NCBI GenBank assembly: GCA_003243865.1
Contig: QHBQ01000105.1
Span: 1 to 5,427 of the forward strand
Length of the DNA stretch: 5,427 nt
Source: Candidatus Chloroheliales bacterium
GTDB lineage: Bacteria; Chloroflexota; Chloroflexia; QHBQ01
Direction of reading: 5' to 3'
Shown here: piece by piece, positions 1 through 5,427 of the stretch
Numbering within the stretch: the stretch's first letter is position 1
Layout: each line of letters opens with the position of its first letter
The notes under the pieces: model-generated
The model's database searches: none
Told to the model about the DNA's origin: nothing
What the model saw: only the letters and a program-made list of their open reading frames with translations
Made by a program: the position numbers and the translations under genes

Positions 1-546
1 AGGCAGATGCTACTTGCTCGCAATAACATTGAGCAATTCAATGAAGATTATTGGGGCGAGCTCAGGAGCCAACTAAATGGCAGTGAAATAACTTCTGAGC
101 AGATCGGTGAGAGAATGAAAAGGATGTGGCAGGATGAGCATAGAGCAAAATACGTGGATAGCCTCATTGACAAGGTTGTGAACACCAGGCGCTTTCGCGT
201 TATAAGAGCGGCTCGCGAATACAAAAGTCTTCGCCTTGTAGTGTCGCCGGACGGCGTAACCGATGAGCTATGCTATGAGTTTCGCTCACTGAAGAACAGT
301 AGCAGCCTAGAGTACCAGCTAGAAGGAATTAAAGCGGTGGCTCACATAAATGCTTATCTTCTTCAGCGACCAAAGATTATGGCTCATGTTCACGTGCGCA
401 CATCAGGGCGAGAGCAGATTGTAACTGAGCGAGCGGATAGGGAGTTGGAACAAGGACATCTGGATGATATAGAAAGAATAATCCAGTATTTCGTAGAAAG
501 ATGGCCCGATGCGCCGGAAGGTTACTGGGATGATAAAAGAGAGTAA
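1..546 (+). CDS. PD-(D/E)XK nuclease-like protein of unknown function, 5'-partial
   Basis: The reading frame is open from the first base. The first ATG is at position 7, giving 179 residues, but the paralogue just downstream has about 47 more residues before the shared region, so the true start probably lies left of the window. The core is P81-D82-G-V-T-D ... Y90-E91-F92-R93-S94 at the end of two predicted strands, followed by a helical stretch (about 102-120, with Q104 and HINAYLLQ) and a strand (IMAHVHVR, 124-131). This order recalls Cas4/RecB/lambda-exonuclease-like PD-(D/E)XK folds, with D82 and E91 as possible metal ligands. The usual Lys is Arg93, so activity is uncertain. No cysteine cluster is visible. 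Sampled GC is about 43-47%, clearly below the next gene, suggesting a different origin. The family assignment is inference from a motif; treat the protein as hypothetical if that fails. Confidence 0.6.
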   Translation, partial: RQMLLARNNIEQFNEDYWGELRSQLNGSEITSEQIGERMKRMWQDEHRAKYVDSLIDKVVNTRRFRVIRAAREYKSLRLVVSPDGVTDELCYEFRSLKNSSSLEYQLEGIKAVAHINAYLLQRPKIMAHVHVRTSGREQIVTERADRELEQGHLDDIERIIQYFVERWPDAPEGYWDDKRE

Positions 547-1648
547 TGAACTACTCTACCCTCACTACGTCCGTCTCGCCGACCTGGTCTGGTTCGCGGC
601 GCAGCCGAGCGCGATGTGGCGGCATCTGGTCGAGCGCGAGGACGAGGTGCAGCAGCAGGTCATGCGCCTCACCCGCCTGCGGCATTTGGAGGAGCGCATC
701 GAGTGGGATACGTACATGGAGTGGCGTAAGCAGGTGGCCGACGGTAAGCTGAGGATTGAGCAGTTGCGTAATCTGCTGACCGCGAAGTACGACCCGCGCT
801 TCGTGGAAAGCACACTCGATCGGGTACTCAACTCTTATCTTTATCCCAGCCTGAAGGCGGTGCGGGTCTGGAACAGCCTGCACATGCTGATTACCCCCGA
901 CGGCGTGACCGATAAGCTCATCTATGAATATCGCTCCGTCGCCGAGCCAAAGGATATGGCCGGCTCAGCCCAGGCGATGCGCACCCTGGCACAGATGGAG
1001 GCGCTACTGCTGGAGCGGCGCGCCATCCAGGTGCAAATCCGCGCCCGCGCGACCGATGATGTGCAGACCATCAATGAGCCGCTCGACCCAGTCCTTGCCC
1101 GCGCATACCTCGACGCTGCCGAGCGCGGCCTGAAGGGAATCGCCAGCCTTAAACTTAACCGCAGTCACGGGTTGCCGCAGGGCGAAAGGCGGCTCGCCTC
1201 TACGCAAACGCGCCCACCTCAAGGAGCAAAGATGAACACATCAAACCGTCAGGCAATCCATGCCGACAACGCCCCCGCCGCGATTGGCCCCTACTCGCAG
1301 GCGGTCCGCAGCGGCAACCTGGTATTCTGCTCCGGTCAGCTTGCAATCAGACCAAGCACCGGCCAGATTGACGAGGGCGATTGGAGCATCGGCCAGCAGA
1401 CCCGCCAGGCCCTCACCAACCTCAAGGCGGTGCTGGAAGCGGCTGGCACCGACCTCGCCCACGTGGTGAAGACGACCGTGTTTCTCGCCCACATCAGCGA
1501 CTTCGCCGAGATGAACAGCGTCTACGCCGAGTTCTTTCCCGCGGAGCAGACCCCGCCCGCCCGCAGCACGGTGGAGGTGGGCCGTTTGCCGAAGGATGGA
1601 TTGGTGGAGATCGAGTGCATTGCGGTGATGCCGGAGAGCATCGCTTAA
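530..1648 (+). CDS. In-frame fusion: PD-(D/E)XK nuclease-like domain plus RidA domain
   Basis: This is a 372-residue frame. I prefer the ATG at 530 over the one at 509 because GGAAGG (516-521) sits 8 bases upstream; it overlaps the previous gene by 17 bases, suggesting translational coupling. Residues 1-~205 are a paralogue of the previous gene: ITPDGVTDKLIYEYRS (121-136) matches VSPDGVTDELCYEFRS there, and the downstream helices align (AQMEALLLERRAIQVQIRAR against AHINAYLLQRPKIMAHVHVR). The N-terminal part (about 14-34, ADLVWFAAQPSAMWRHL) faintly resembles the start of Cas4-type proteins but lacks the cysteine. P123-D124, E133 and R135 would be the degenerate catalytic set. Residues ~206-234 look like translated intergenic sequence (Arg/Gln/Pro-rich, no fold signal). 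Residues 235-372 are a complete RidA. Whether the long product is made, or RidA is made separately from 1232, cannot be decided from sequence. Sampled GC is about 70%. Confidence 0.6.
   Translation: MIKESNELLYPHYVRLADLVWFAAQPSAMWRHLVEREDEVQQQVMRLTRLRHLEERIEWDTYMEWRKQVADGKLRIEQLRNLLTAKYDPRFVESTLDRVLNSYLYPSLKAVRVWNSLHMLITPDGVTDKLIYEYRSVAEPKDMAGSAQAMRTLAQMEALLLERRAIQVQIRARATDDVQTINEPLDPVLARAYLDAAERGLKGIASLKLNRSHGLPQGERRLASTQTRPPQGAKMNTSNRQAIHADNAPAAIGPYSQAVRSGNLVFCSGQLAIRPSTGQIDEGDWSIGQQTRQALTNLKAVLEAAGTDLAHVVKTTVFLAHISDFAEMNSVYAEFFPAEQTPPARSTVEVGRLPKDGLVEIECIAVMPESIA
1221..1226 (+). promoter_or_regulatory. Strong internal ribosome binding site before ridA
   Basis: AAGGAG lies five bases before the ATG at 1232 although the surrounding frame is open. 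Together with a small perfect hairpin just upstream (AGGCG 1187-1191, loop GCT, CGCCT 1195-1199), this makes the stretch about 1150-1231 look like a former or functional intergenic region. It is the main evidence that RidA can be translated on its own. Confidence 0.6.
1232..1648 (+). CDS. ridA: RidA family enamine/imine deaminase (internal start of the fused frame)
   Basis: Read from the ATG at 1232, this is a 138-residue protein, a normal length for Rid/YjgF/YER057c/UK114 proteins (about 125-135). RidA hydrolyses reactive enamine/imine intermediates such as 2-aminoacrylate from PLP enzymes, acting in the cytosol as a trimer. Hallmarks are present: IGPYSQAV with Y21, LVFCSGQ (30-36), the QTRQALTNLKAVLEAAGTDL helix (56-75), PPARSTVEV with R111, and LVEIECIAV with E126. 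Y21, R111 and E126 correspond to E. coli RidA Y17, R105 and E120, so the active site looks intact. The start is supported by AAGGAG at 1221-1226, five bases upstream. No stop separates it from the upstream nuclease-like domain, so it may also be made as the C-terminus of a fusion. The gene ends 15 bases before the methyltransferase start and is probably co-transcribed with it. Confidence 0.85.
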   Translation: MNTSNRQAIHADNAPAAIGPYSQAVRSGNLVFCSGQLAIRPSTGQIDEGDWSIGQQTRQALTNLKAVLEAAGTDLAHVVKTTVFLAHISDFAEMNSVYAEFFPAEQTPPARSTVEVGRLPKDGLVEIECIAVMPESIA

Positions 1649-1663
1649 GTAAAGGGTCATCAT

Positions 1664-2941
1664 ATGCCACTGTCGCCCGTGCGGGAGATCAACAGGCTTG
1701 AAATCCAGCCTATATTGCCTGTCGTCGACTCAGTAAGTCAGGATGGGCAGCCGGAGCTTGGGGCTGATCTGAATTTGAGCTTCGCTGGAGTGGACACTCA
1801 GTATGCCACTCATTCTATCCACCCTTATATTGCCGCCATCAATCCCCCGCTAGCCCGCACGCTGATTGAGCATTACGTGCCAGCGGGAGAAACCGTGCTG
1901 GATCCATTCTGTGGTGGGGGGGGCGTACTTGTCGAGGCTGTGCTGAACGGGCGCCAGGCGGTTGGCTACGATGTCAACCCGCTGGCGGTACTAATCAGTC
2001 GGGTCAAGACCACTCCCCTGCCCTCACGCCGCACCATCCACGAGTACACCAAGGTTTTGGATGAGGCGCAAGCTCTCGCCCGCAACGCGCCATGTACAGA
2101 TGTTCCTGATGTAATCAGTTACTGGTACAACGAGGACACGCTGCCGCCACTCTTCGCGCTGCGAACTGTAATCAGTCGCATCGAAGACGTGCAAGTGCGC
2201 GATATGTTCCTGGTTGCGCTATCGGCCACTGCCCGTGAGGTGATGCTGACATATCGGGGGGAAGTACGGCTGCGGCGACTACAAGGGCCAGATCTGGAGC
2301 GGTTCAGGCCTAACGTGCTTGCCTCGTTTCGCAAGCGGGCTGAACTGGCAATTACCCGCGTCGCCCAACTACCAGCCAATGCTCATGCCAGAGCCGAAGT
2401 TGGCGATGCGCGGCAGATAAGCATGGCGCAAAAGTTTCACTCAGTGATTACCTCACCGCCTTATGCCGACGACACCAACGGGGTAGGCTACTTCCAATTC
2501 AGCCGCAATATGCTGTACTGGCTGGGCTTCTCGCTCGATGAACTAAAGGAGCAGCGTAAGCTCTTTCTGGGGTGCAGTGGGCAGAACACTGCCAACTTGC
2601 CAACGCTCCCTTCAATAACACTGCAAAGGACGCTCGAACTGCTGACCAAGCAGAAGGAGCAGCATTATAGGGAGGCGTTGAGCTTCTACCACGATTATCA
2701 TAGAGCGCTTGACCGAATCGCCAGCGTGGTGGAAAAGCGCCTTATCATCGTGATCGGCGACCGAGTGCTATCGCGCACCTATATCAACAACGGGCATATC
2801 ACCACCGAGTTGCTCGAAGCGCTCGGTTTTGGGCTGGAACATTATTACACTCGTGAGCTAAAGAAGAAGAGGATTGCCAATCTGGGTGGTGATGGTGGCG
2901 GAACTTCTATAGAACACATCCTTGTGTATCAACACCGCTAA
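1664..2941 (+). CDS. Type II DNA methyltransferase, amino-type (probably N4-cytosine)
   Basis: This 425-residue protein is an S-adenosylmethionine-dependent exocyclic-amino DNA methyltransferase, the protective half of a restriction-modification system. Motifs in order: motif X-like THSIHPY (49-55); motif [10 protein letters not shown] (80-88), the AdoMet-binding loop; motif II GYDVNP (101-106), with the acidic ribose-binding residue; and motif IV TSPPY (263-267), the catalytic loop. SPPY is commoner in N4-cytosine enzymes, but N6-adenine activity is not excluded. The C-terminus [10 protein letters not shown] (413-422) is typical of the N4/N6 methylase family. The order X-I-II then IV, with about 175 intervening residues, fits a group that places the AdoMet domain first. 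ATG 1664 is preceded by AAAGGG (1651-1656) seven bases upstream and lies 15 bases after the RidA stop, so read-through transcription from the left is likely. Its stop TAA overlaps the stop of the convergent endonuclease gene. Sampled GC is near 53%, below its left neighbour. Target sequence unknown. Confidence 0.88.
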
Positions 2942-4035
2942 ACAAGGCGCTGCTGAAATTGCTTCCATGCCTGAATGATAGCATGCACCAGAACATCCGG
3001 CTGCTCTTCGGTAAAGGTTAGTGAATGTATCTTTGCACCGGAGGTCGTTTCGCCGACGCTGGGTGGGGTGCGTCGGTTGAATGAGTAGCAACCACTGAAC
3101 TGCCCAGCCACCTCGAAGTAGCGGCGCTTATCGCCGCCCCTGGTATGACCCAGTTCGCCACGAACTACTGCGTCACCGTGCGGCGGTGGATACATCTTCG
3201 CGTCCAGGGTAACGACCGCCGACCAAAAGCCATGAGCAATGAGTGACCTACTTGCCGGGGCATCATCAGAGAGCCGCTCGGCGATGCTCGCCTTGCAATG
3301 AAGTACACCAAAGATAAACGTCTGGCCCTTTGCTCCGGCTTTAAGAACCAGGTCGGTTTTAGAACTGCCGACACCCTGCTCTCTCAAGTCGAGATCCTCA
3401 GCGTCGGCAGGTTTGGCACGCCGTAGCATGATATTGTATACAGCTAGGCGTGGAGCATAGATGTCCAAAATAATCTGCTCGAATGCCTGACCCCCCACCC
3501 GCACCCAGCTTTGAGCGCTCCTCCCAAGCTGGCGATAGGTGTGATATATCAGATGCACCCATAGGTCAGCAGGATTGGCATCTGGACATAGCTGAACCAC
3601 AGCAATCATCGCTTGAGCAACCGCATTATAGGCTGGTTCTTTGCGTGTAAGCCCTTCGCGCAAGGAGTTGGCAAGTTGCCGGTACTGTTCAGTTGTGATA
3701 CCCTCGATGACAACATCTACCCACTGCTTGGCATCGCTGCTGCGGACACGAACCAGCGTGGAGTCAGGTTCTATTGTAACTGGCTCTCCTATGTCAGTAG
3801 GTCGTACTGCACCTGCCAAGGCGATAACGCCTTGCAGAAGTTCGTCGGGGGATACTTGAAGCGCCAAGGCTAGCCTGATGATATTGAGCAGGGAAACATT
3901 GCGCTCACCTCGCTCCACGCTGCCGATGTAGGTACGATGAAGCCCAGTCGCAGCCGCAAGCTGCTCCTGCGACCAGCCAAGCCGAGCGCGAAGCCTACGT
4001 ACATTTTCGCCAAAGCGCAAAAGATAATCATTCAT
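2938..4035 (-). CDS. Controller (C) protein-like HTH fused to PD-(D/E)XK Type II restriction endonuclease
   Basis: This is a 365-residue protein from ATG at 4035; a TTG two codons further upstream (4041-4039) is possible. Residues 4-68 form an XRE/Cro-type helix-turn-helix: [32 protein letters not shown] (21-52, in two pieces [11 protein letters not shown] and [15 protein letters not shown]) closely matches C proteins of restriction-modification systems such as C.AhdI and C.Esp1396I. A linker (about 75-130) leads to a nuclease domain: helix [15 protein letters not shown] (181-195, E186), then SSKTDLVL (224-231, D228), then [14 protein letters not shown] (242-255, K248, R254), then [13 protein letters not shown]228 and K248 fit a PD-(D/E)XK centre; CK followed by ER resembles CCGG/CCNGG-type enzymes (BsaWI, EcoRII group), a weak hint of specificity. 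It would cut unmodified DNA, with the convergent methyltransferase protecting the host. The two stop codons overlap (2938-2941). No good Shine-Dalgarno site precedes the ATG, so leaderless or weak translation is likely. Confidence 0.85.
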
Positions 4036-4125
4036 CAGCAATGATGATAACCCACGTGAACTCTATAGGTCTACAGACTATTAGTATCATAATCCATGGG
4101 TTAAGGAACAAAAGAGGTGAGAACA
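4036..4125. promoter_or_regulatory. Divergent control region between endonuclease and WYL regulator
   Basis: Ninety AT-rich bases separate the two divergent starts. Overlapping candidate -10 boxes are visible: TATGAT on the minus strand (4091-4086) for the endonuclease and CATAAT on the plus strand (4088-4093) for the WYL gene. Neither has a convincing -35 box, which suits activator-dependent transcription. GAGGTGA (4114-4120), five bases before the ATG at 4126, is the ribosome binding site of the WYL gene. A perfect 7-bp inverted repeat (TAACCCA 4048-4054, TGGGTTA 4097-4103) frames the region. Promoter positions are visual matches only. Confidence 0.45.
4059..4086. promoter_or_regulatory. 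Candidate C-box operators for the HTH-endonuclease
   Basis: GACT-ATT-AGTA (4076-4086) matches seven of eight arm positions of the GACTnnnAGTC symmetric C-box used by controller proteins. About 16 bp away, centred near 4065, AACT-CTA-TAGGT (4059-4070) is a poorer second copy sharing ACT-N2/3-TAG. Between them GTCT-AC-AGAC (4069-4078) is also a perfect inverted repeat. Paired C-boxes upstream of the controller gene allow its dimers to switch the gene first on, then off. The location, 41-77 bases before the endonuclease ATG, is right for autoregulation. C-boxes vary among systems, so binding is inference. Confidence 0.4.
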
Positions 4126-5070
4126 ATGAACCGCACTGACCGTCTTCTTGCGATCGTATTGGAGTTGCAGGGCAAGGGCAAGCTACGGGCCGAAGACCTC
4201 GCCGCCACCTTCGAGATCAGCAAGCGCACCATCTACCGCGACATCCAGGCGCTCAGCGAGTCGGGCGTGCCGCTGGTGGCGGTGCCGGGGCAGGGCTACG
4301 CGCTGGTTGAGGGCTACTTTCTGCCGCCGCTCAGTTTCACCACCGATGAGGCCACCATGCTGCTGCTGGGCAGCGACTTCATGGCCCAGAGTTTCGACGC
4401 GCAATATCGCGCCGCCGCCCAGTCGGCCAGCCGCAAGATCGAGGGAGTGTTGAAGGCGCAGGTGCGCGACGAGGCGCGCTATCTACGCGAGAATATTCGC
4501 TTCGTTGCCAGCAACAGCCCCGAAGAGCGCGGCAGCGGCGAGACCCTGGCCCAACTGCGGCGGGCAATCATCGAGCGGGCGACGGTGCGTTTCCACTATT
4601 ACCCCCGCTACCGAGAAGGCAACCAGCCGCCCACCAGCCGCGAAGCTGACCCCCACGCCCTCTCCTACGTTGGCGGCGCGATATATCTCACCGCCTACGA
4701 CCACACCCGCCAGGCGATGCGTAACTTCCGCCTCGACCGCATTGACAACCTGACCCTGCTGCCAAAGCGATTTACCCGCCGTGGCGACTCCCGACTCGAA
4801 CGCCCCCGCCTTGAGGAGCGTAACATCATCGTGCGCGTGCTGTTCGACCACGAGGTTGCACGCTGGGCGCAAGAGGGCCGCTCGTTCTTCACTATCAACG
4901 AGGAGCAGACCCCTGACGGCCTGCTGGTAACGCTGGCGGTGCGGCAGGAGAGCGAGGTGCTGGGCTGGCTGCTGAACTGGGGCCGCCACGTGCGGGTGCT
5001 GGAGCCGCAGTCGTTGCAGCGGATGCTGGTCGAGGAAGCGGAAGCAATTGCCCAAAATTATCATGATTAG
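4126..5070 (+). CDS. HTH-WYL transcriptional regulator (YafY/DeoR-like)
   Basis: This is a 314-residue cytoplasmic DNA-binding protein. I prefer ATG 4126 (ribosome site GAGGTGA five bases before) over an in-frame GTG at 4117. The N-terminus (about 2-60) is a winged helix: RTDRLLAIVLELQGKGKL, then LAATFEISKRTIYRDIQALS (recognition helix about 32-43) and the wing GVPLVAVPGQGYAL. A helical connector (about 72-125) precedes the WYL domain (about 140-215): VRFHYYP, then YVGGAIYLTAYD (181-192) and MRNFRLDRI (198-206), the conserved ligand-pocket and RxFRLDRI signatures. A WCX-type C-terminal extension (about 232-310) ends in GWLLNWGRHVRVLEP. WYL domains bind nucleic acids or nucleotide-like ligands, and family members control stress, DNA-damage or defence genes. 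The next gene is a VOC-family protein in the same direction, a common pairing. It is GC-rich (about 73% in a sampled line), unlike the adjacent endonuclease gene, so it probably belongs to the host backbone. Its ligand and targets are unknown. Confidence 0.88.
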   Translation: MNRTDRLLAIVLELQGKGKLRAEDLAATFEISKRTIYRDIQALSESGVPLVAVPGQGYALVEGYFLPPLSFTTDEATMLLLGSDFMAQSFDAQYRAAAQSASRKIEGVLKAQVRDEARYLRENIRFVASNSPEERGSGETLAQLRRAIIERATVRFHYYPRYREGNQPPTSREADPHALSYVGGAIYLTAYDHTRQAMRNFRLDRIDNLTLLPKRFTRRGDSRLERPRLEERNIIVRVLFDHEVARWAQEGRSFFTINEEQTPDGLLVTLAVRQESEVLGWLLNWGRHVRVLEPQSLQRMLVEEAEAIAQNYHD

Positions 5071-5129
5071 AAGCTGCACAACGCCACAGTTGAGGCCAGC
5101 CTGTAGGGGCAAATTGCTGTTCGCCCTAT

Positions 5130-5145
5130 TAATTTTGCAAAATTA
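5130..5145. promoter_or_regulatory. Perfect 16-bp palindrome, candidate operator
   Basis: TAATTTTGCAAAATTA is a perfect 16-bp palindrome in the 200-base gap between the WYL gene and the VOC gene, about 50 bp upstream of a TATAAT box. It is too AT-rich and lacks the T-run of an intrinsic terminator. A dimeric regulator site is the simplest reading; the adjacent WYL protein is an obvious but unproven candidate binder. Confidence 0.45.
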
Positions 5146-5164
5146 CCAAAATGGCGAATCGCTA

Positions 5165-5204
5165 CTGACATAACGTTGTCACGAGCATCCCATATAATGA
5201 TAGT
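5165..5204 (+). promoter_or_regulatory. Probable promoter of the VOC gene
   Basis: A perfect TATAAT is at 5193-5198. Its -35 partner is unclear: CTGACA (5165-5170) is 22 bases away and TTGTCA (5176-5181) only 11. TTGTCA is instead 17 bases from GATAGT (5199-5204), an alternative -10. The leader that follows carries a small hairpin (CTGGC 5233-5237, loop AAAC, GCCAG 5242-5246) and the ribosome site AAAGGAG at 5255-5261. GGCGAACA at 5209-5216 is the inverse of TGTTCGCC at 5118-5125, so the two flank the promoter. Confidence 0.45.
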
Positions 5205-5270
5205 GTAAGGCGAACAAACAAAACCAAACCGCCTGGCAAACGCCAGAGCAAAGCAAAGGAGAGTTACACC

Positions 5271-5414
5271 ATGCAGACCCCAGAGCTTAACTTCGTGGTG
5301 ATTTACGTGTCCGACATGGACGCCTCGTACAACTTCTTCGTTAATTTTTCATCTGGCGGAAGCCGGGGCTATTCCGATCCGCTTCGCTGGCTGGCTCGAA
5401 GCCGAGGACATTAA
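5271..5414 (+). pseudogene. VOC (glyoxalase/bleomycin-resistance fold) gene start, broken by fold-back
   Basis: AAAGGAG (5255-5261) lies a good distance before ATG 5271. The first 25 codons read MQTPELNFVVIYVSDMDASY then NFFVN, a typical first strand and helix of vicinal-oxygen-chelate proteins (metal-dependent glyoxalase, dioxygenase and resistance proteins). The expected LGF continuation is missing in this frame. From 5346 the reading becomes unrelated (FSSGGSRGYSDPLRW...) and stops at TAA 5412-5414 after 47 codons. Those last 22 codons are antisense to real VOC sequence, as shown by the minus-strand entry. The intact gene elsewhere would probably encode about 120-130 residues. I read this as the 5' end of a genuine gene whose copy here is disrupted by an inverted junction near 5345. 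Confidence 0.7.
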
Positions 5415-5427
5415 CGAAGAAGTTGTA
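5328..5427. repeat. 18-bp perfect inverted repeat with 64-base spacer at window end
   Basis: TACAACTTCTTCGTTAAT (5328-5345) is perfectly inverted at 5410-5427 (ATTAACGAAGAAGTTGTA), the last base of the window, so the arms may continue outside. The spacer 5346-5409 is not palindromic and carries the single copy of the downstream VOC codons in reverse. This is the signature of an inverted duplication by template switching. Confidence 0.9.
5346..5427 (-). pseudogene. Inverted fragment of the same VOC gene
   Basis: Reading the minus strand from 5427 gives YNFFVNVLGFEP, then ASEADR, then NSPGFRQMK: the true continuation of the VOC protein that begins on the plus strand (SYNFFVN followed by the family's LGF motif). 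The frame then meets the junction and a stop TAA (5343-5341). So codons about 20-46 of the gene lie here in reverse, joined to codons 1-25 in forward orientation. Confidence 0.75.

Follow-up and report, generated by a model that had tools for sequence, protein, structure and literature searches.

The closest described relatives of the gene discussed here are five PvuII-type fusions of a controller (C) protein with a restriction endonuclease (REase), reported by Liang & Blumenthal in 2013 (PMC3850674). According to the passages of that report dealing with them, C proteins act as dimers, the fusion NsoJS138I is active in both roles, cutting as PvuII does and raising expression from its promoter region 23-fold, and repeated fusion events are suggested. 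C-REase fusions are also mentioned, with one reference, in the pertinent section of a 2025 review (PMC12707154). Our search of the open-licence literature found no paper on an AgeI-type C-REase fusion, the PvuII-type study being the only one on fusions that it retrieved; REBASE may list such fusions.

The present gene lies in a stretch of 5,427 nucleotides from Candidatus Chloroheliales bacterium, analyzed at full length and hereinafter called the window. The locus as a whole is very probably a Type IIP-like restriction-modification (R-M) system that belongs to the AgeI/BsaWI (CCGG) family and whose controller and endonuclease genes have fused. Like CR.NsoJS138I and the other PvuII-type fusions, as the sections on their architecture present them, it has the C domain N-terminally and the REase C-terminally in one chain, with C-box-like elements upstream; the methyltransferase is convergent, as in two of those five (Asp and Gsp), and the linker of ~21 residues is near the ~25 residues of the cyanobacterial fusions, whereas the Nso and Mru fusions have no linker (PMC3850674). 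In contrast to all of these, its nuclease is of the AgeI/BsaWI (CCGG) family and not of the PvuII type, which limits the subfamily but not the kind of fusion; since the nucleases belong to different families, the fusion in the window is separate in origin. The helix-turn-helix (HTH) fold and the C-box-like double operator before the gene are shared with C.AhdI and C.Esp1396I, but here the C protein is not a separate one. A further parallel is offered by Ecl18kI, SsoII and EcoRII, R-M enzymes that, in the review's treatment of them, likewise carry their own transcription-factor domain; there the regulator sits on the methyltransferase, in the window on the nuclease (PMC12707154).

Domain Architecture of the Fusion Protein

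The CR fusion gene (2938..4035, minus strand; 365 residues, ATG at 4035, stop at 2938-2940) is a single open frame, in which an HTH-bearing C domain (residues 1-70; 3826..4035), a linker (residues 71-91; 3763..3825; pLDDT <50 at 75-81) and an AgeI/BsaWI-type endonuclease domain (residues 92-365; 2941..3762) succeed one another on the minus strand. The system has no separate C gene: a tblastn search of the window with the C domain found no second C-like frame (no other match below E 2). Both halves gave Pfam matches above cut-off, namely HTH_3 (residues 12-66, 2e-16) in the N-terminal and RE_BsaWI (PF18643; 220-318, 6e-10) in the C-terminal half. PADLOC models add Control_protein at residues 1-68 (8e-24) and REase_II at 107-345 (1e-49); for the fusion protein no NCBIfam family scored above cut-off. 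Among PDB sequences, residues 5-66 best match C.AhdI (4e-16), with C.BclI next (3e-13), residues 107-346 match AgeI (5e-50), and residues 172-297 match BsaWI more weakly (8e-7). These matches bear out the original prediction that a C protein and an endonuclease are joined in one polypeptide and that its first 68 residues are C-like; the 15-residue stretch singled out there is also present at its place. The nuclease part had been drawn from residue 130, but the domain begins near residue 92. Against the 365 residues of the fusion, the PDB chains of AgeI and BsaWI have 278 and 272; AgeI lacks a C-type extension, because its residue 1 aligns at residue 93 of the fusion. BsaWI, by the structural account of it, has a helical N-domain of its own (PMC4652773).

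The same fusion occurs in two further records, P0002 (77% identity) and P0003 (73%), so that an assembly slip is unlikely to have caused the fused frame. The latter is the protein of L001, a locus of a Chloroflexi metagenome-assembled genome that has the same fusion, operator, methyltransferase and flanking WYL and RidA genes. The ATG at 4035 lines up with the starts of both proteins; it is the likelier start than an in-frame TTG further upstream, at 4041, since only 2 nt would separate that TTG from the putative -10 element. Between the window and L001, with synonymous sites near saturation, pn/ps is low in both the C domain (0.21, 70 codons) and the REase domain (0.20, 273 codons), as against 0.68 in the linker (21 codons).

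The Controller Domain

Among solved structures C.AhdI is the best match of the HTH both by sequence and by fold, with an rmsd of 0.5 over 66 residues. In a tree of C domains, the HTH of the window groups with the separately encoded C proteins from the unfused AgeI-like operons L002 and L003. This fork, formed by the window, P0002, P0003 and the C proteins of L002 and L003, is modest in support (89/88 over 78 columns), and a stray XRE row on a long branch, XRE_L033, falls inside it. A grouping with unrelated XRE regulators, which had been named as the outcome that would speak against a controller, was thus not what we found: the small HTH_3-type domain is nearest to known C proteins. The Control_protein match alone is not specific, because the PADLOC models also match all nine generic XRE domains scored from relatives' genomes (nine of the 12 XRE rows of the tree, all but L033, L035 and L038) at 37-67 bits, against 86.6 for the window HTH; hence, we rejected this score as sole proof of C identity. 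That the CR protein would sense its own concentration is a fair suggestion.

The Nuclease Domain

AgeI cuts A/CCGGT and BsaWI W/CCGGW. The predicted fold of the C-terminal half is AgeI-type, in agreement with the sequence match, and the domain shows a PD-(D/E)XK fold with the AgeI/BsaWI topology; the nuclease fold, whose absence was to have counted against the prediction, is thus present by sequence and predicted structure. For the active site, we took the BsaWI residues as described in its structural report (PMC4652773) and counted conservation over the 46 AgeI-like rows of one alignment. The counterpart of BsaWI E92 would be E186 (3478..3480, minus strand; E in 45 of the 46 rows, Q in P0035), judging from conservation and place. 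By spacing, the proposed catalytic D228 (3352..3354, minus) corresponds to D145 (D in 45 of 46, V in P0002), the proposed catalytic K248 (3292..3294, minus) to K165 (46 of 46), and the second acidic residue, D258 (3262..3264, minus), to D175 (46 of 46). Thus, D228 and K248 stand where the original prediction had put them, but in the permuted order of the CCGG family (E186, D228...K248...D258) and not in the canonical one. The recognition pair E253-R254 (E/D-R) is likewise found, and at the first Arg of the R-(D/E)R motif the window has A252, as does the aligned AgeI stretch. The proposed catalytic and CCGG-recognition residues are intact in the window, and the target of the putative cleavage would have a CCGG core. 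ACCGGT is absent from the window, which at this length carries no weight. In P0002, the fusion relative with 77% identity, V replaces D228 and the C-terminus is longer; since this protein is without the catalytic Asp, some fusions may be nuclease-dead, with P0002 perhaps surviving as a regulator.

Operator and Promoter

The upstream regions of C-bearing loci have a common double element around AGTC-N4-GACT. As a short pattern with one mismatch allowed, it gave one match in the window against 1.54 expected by chance, and we replaced it by a matrix trained on five unfused C-R loci (L002, L003, L009, L010 and L018), with the window and L001 left out. Of the 10,788 positions scored with this matrix, the best, at 28.7, is a C-box-like double operator (4057..4090, minus strand; core AGTC-TGTA-GACC at 4068-4079); the runner-up has 8.6. 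The flanks of the matrix are independent of the window, but its core is not fully so, as the pattern used to pick the training sites had been noticed beforehand in the window and related loci, and two of the five training sites are nearly alike. None of 300 first-order Markov windows reached 28.7 (largest 17.8), and the L001 operator scores 29.3. In upstream stretches of up to 700 bases, no site exceeds 14.4 in any of the 13 loci that lack a C directly ahead of R, nor in L020 or L025. The best site among those without an adjacent C, that of L011 (14.4), lies inside unrelated ORFs, has no C-like ORF after it and was taken as chance. The window operator resembles the published C boxes of Esp1396I and others.

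A putative promoter (4044..4073, minus strand) consists of a -35 TAGACC (4068-4073), inside the operator, and, after 18 nt, a -10 TATCAT (4044-4049) that ends 8 nt before the ATG; TATCAT stands 8 nt before the ATG in L001 too. This spacing suggests that the CR transcript may be leaderless. It is the one sigma-70-like site found in 2850-4200, a number that equals chance (shuffles average 1.1). As far as sequence can tell, a C-box operator lies upstream of its own gene and overlaps the promoter, an arrangement that fits C control. The operator lies in a 90-nt intergenic region common to CR and a divergent HTH_11-WYL-WCX regulator (4126-5070, plus strand), and C binding could consequently also affect the latter; the arrangement is the same in L001, where the counterpart (4315-5256) is 84% identical.

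The Methyltransferase and the Gene Neighborhood

Convergent with the fusion, and overlapping it by 4 nt at the stop ends, is a gene for a DNA methyltransferase of 425 residues (1664..2941, plus strand) with DPFCGGG and SPPY motifs (PF01555, 1e-10; PADLOC MTase_II, 6e-64). It is presumed to be the cognate one, and such a separate methyltransferase nearby is what a Type IIP system would have. Its PDB matches are only partial, and the source names of its relatives include some cytosine-N4-specific and a few adenine enzymes. Homologs convergent with R are found in L001 (79% identity), L002 (57%), L003 (60%) and L004 (48%); the other 15 REase loci had no methyltransferase match at E 1e-4 in the stretch examined. 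Taking equal contig size as a stand-in for the same contig, we found that 26 of the 83 REase clusters among the matches listed have a longest contig equal in size to that of a methyltransferase cluster (120 of the 475 found were compared, 119 with known size). Shifting the sizes by 1-10 either way as a control gave 0-3 pairs, and all 26 paired clusters are among the 64 best REase matches. By these counts, the REase family is associated with a methyltransferase family. More distant AgeI-like enzymes adjoin other methyltransferases, as in L025 and on the BsaWI plasmid, where the neighbor is annotated as a DNA cytosine methyltransferase.

Upstream of the methyltransferase gene, a RidA gene ends 15 nt before it, its product being 79% identical to that of L001. 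The frame at 509-1648 (plus strand) has a first part without a Pfam match that runs, in frame and with no stop, into the RidA (L-PSP) domain; in L001 the counterparts of the two parts lie apart from each other, with a change of frame within the first, and the joined frame would reflect a lost stop or a frame error. The frames 1-546 and 530-1231 (plus strand) are tandem paralogs without a Pfam match (28% identity over 149 columns), of which L001 has more copies beyond RidA. The window closes with one arm of a perfect 18-nt inverted repeat (5328-5345 and 5410-5427), which may have arisen as an artefact of fold-back during assembly or amplification. An Rfam scan at gathering thresholds gave no match in the window.

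Phyletic Distribution and Evolutionary History

A search with the CR protein, limited to 8000 scored candidates, returned at least 110 matches, at least 83 of them AgeI-like. Among the 83 AgeI-like matches listed, 10 carry an N-terminal HTH matching Control_protein: the window and all nine other fusions, the match being partial in P0083. The other 27 of the 110 listed are similar by the HTH alone; 22 of these carry PF09225, which we take to be PvuII-type. These 22 (P0084-P0103, P0105 and P0106), each with an N-terminal HTH, suggest that PvuII-type fusions are commoner than the five published. With 10 AgeI-like and 22 PF09225 proteins of this build among the matches listed, the earlier statement that C-R fusions are uncommon needs softening.

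Scans with the REase alignment yielded 16 loci in species genomes and three in viral contigs. Of these 19, L001 alone is fused. In five (L002, L003, L009, L010 and L018) a separate C-like gene immediately precedes R, and 13 have no C there, with an HTH gene more than 1 kb upstream in L012 and more than 3 kb upstream in L013; C genes were sought by tblastn with the window C domain at E up to 1e-4. In L002, 2 nt separate the C stop from the R start, in L003 the two overlap as ATGA, and R is read in another frame than C; the window looks like an operon of this type after a frame change and the acquisition of a ~21-residue linker. In a sample of 400 genomes from the phylum to which the L001 genome belongs, two had an AgeI-like match, one of them that genome itself. 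INPHARED phages gave no match to the REase domain; 201 plasmid records match, most of the 20 listed through the HTH, and none covers 80% of the query.

In a REase tree of 57 chosen domains, the window is joined with P0002 and P0003 in a clade (100/99) that lies among unfused enzymes. This tree includes L002 and L003, which an earlier 100-row tree did not (L008 is in neither), and has long branches for P0079 and L020. The 12 HTH-bearing rows, a label set after inspection of the 100-row tree, need three changes on it, and well-supported branches force no fewer; holding the 12 together is rejected (p-AU 5e-6). A single gain followed by two losses may account for the three changes. Two AgeI-like nucleases, in L025 (1111-2334) and in L020 (3692-4813, on a Gordonia plasmid), have an N-terminal HTH that is not clearly C-type, matching Control_protein weakly in L025 and, in L020/P0231, not at E 0.001; these two may represent HTH-nuclease fusions of a kind of their own.

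Proposed Mechanism and Alternatives

We infer activation and repression, cleavage, its target and the timing along the following lines. The methyltransferase would be expressed from its own end of the locus, possibly through transcription running on from the RidA gene, and would protect the host first. The CR gene would start from a weak promoter with its -35 within the C-box pair; at low levels a C-domain dimer would bind the operator and activate, and at higher levels, with both sites filled, the C domain would repress. The nuclease itself would be the autoregulator, its amount inseparable from that of C.

The fusion would be only formal if the gene gave separate products, with C arising by cleavage or frameshift and the REase from an internal start. 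The window has an in-frame TTG at residue 73, at the linker start; L001 has TTG87 and GTG95, the latter near where unfused REases begin; and the linker is loose and fast-changing, hence perhaps protease-prone. However, residues 41-142 of the window hold no in-frame ATG or GTG but only TTG57, TTG73 and TTG125, no start codon lies at the same place in the two linkers, and the published account of a PvuII-type fusion states that no shorter product was seen (PMC3850674). We consider separate products improbable.

Still less credence is due to the view that the HTH is a generic XRE domain, contributing to DNA affinity or the choice of target without autoregulation. Non-C HTH fusions do seem to exist in the AgeI-like family, since the HTH of L025 matches the C models weakly and that of L020/P0231 not at E 0.001, but the window HTH is closest to C.AhdI and to the stand-alone C genes beside unfused relatives, and it has a matching operator upstream, which L020 and L025 lack (2.2 and 9.3). 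Very unlikely, too, is an inactive nuclease half in a protein kept as a regulator only: P0002 offers the precedent of a V in place of D228, but all proposed active-site residues are present in the window and pn/ps of the REase half is about as low as that of the C half.

A title cited in PMC6344858 reports AgeI as a monomer that dimerizes to cleave. We tentatively raise, as a rather doubtful possibility, that the C domain supplies standing dimerization, that filling of both sites gathers four nuclease domains at their own promoter, and that C oligomerization sets nuclease activity as well as expression. If true, this would be a direct protein-level link of regulator and nuclease, absent in unfused systems, and would differ from the PvuII-type fusions, whose REase dimerizes by itself. 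That C-REase fusion has taken place in another nuclease family is well supported by the sequence comparisons, and a principle already known is thereby extended from one family to another. The unfused sister operons with the same operator would permit a clean comparison of one system in its fused and unfused forms, making testable the question, posed in the relevant part of Liang & Blumenthal's report, of the effect of fusion on expression kinetics and on the competition between two dimer interfaces (PMC3850674).
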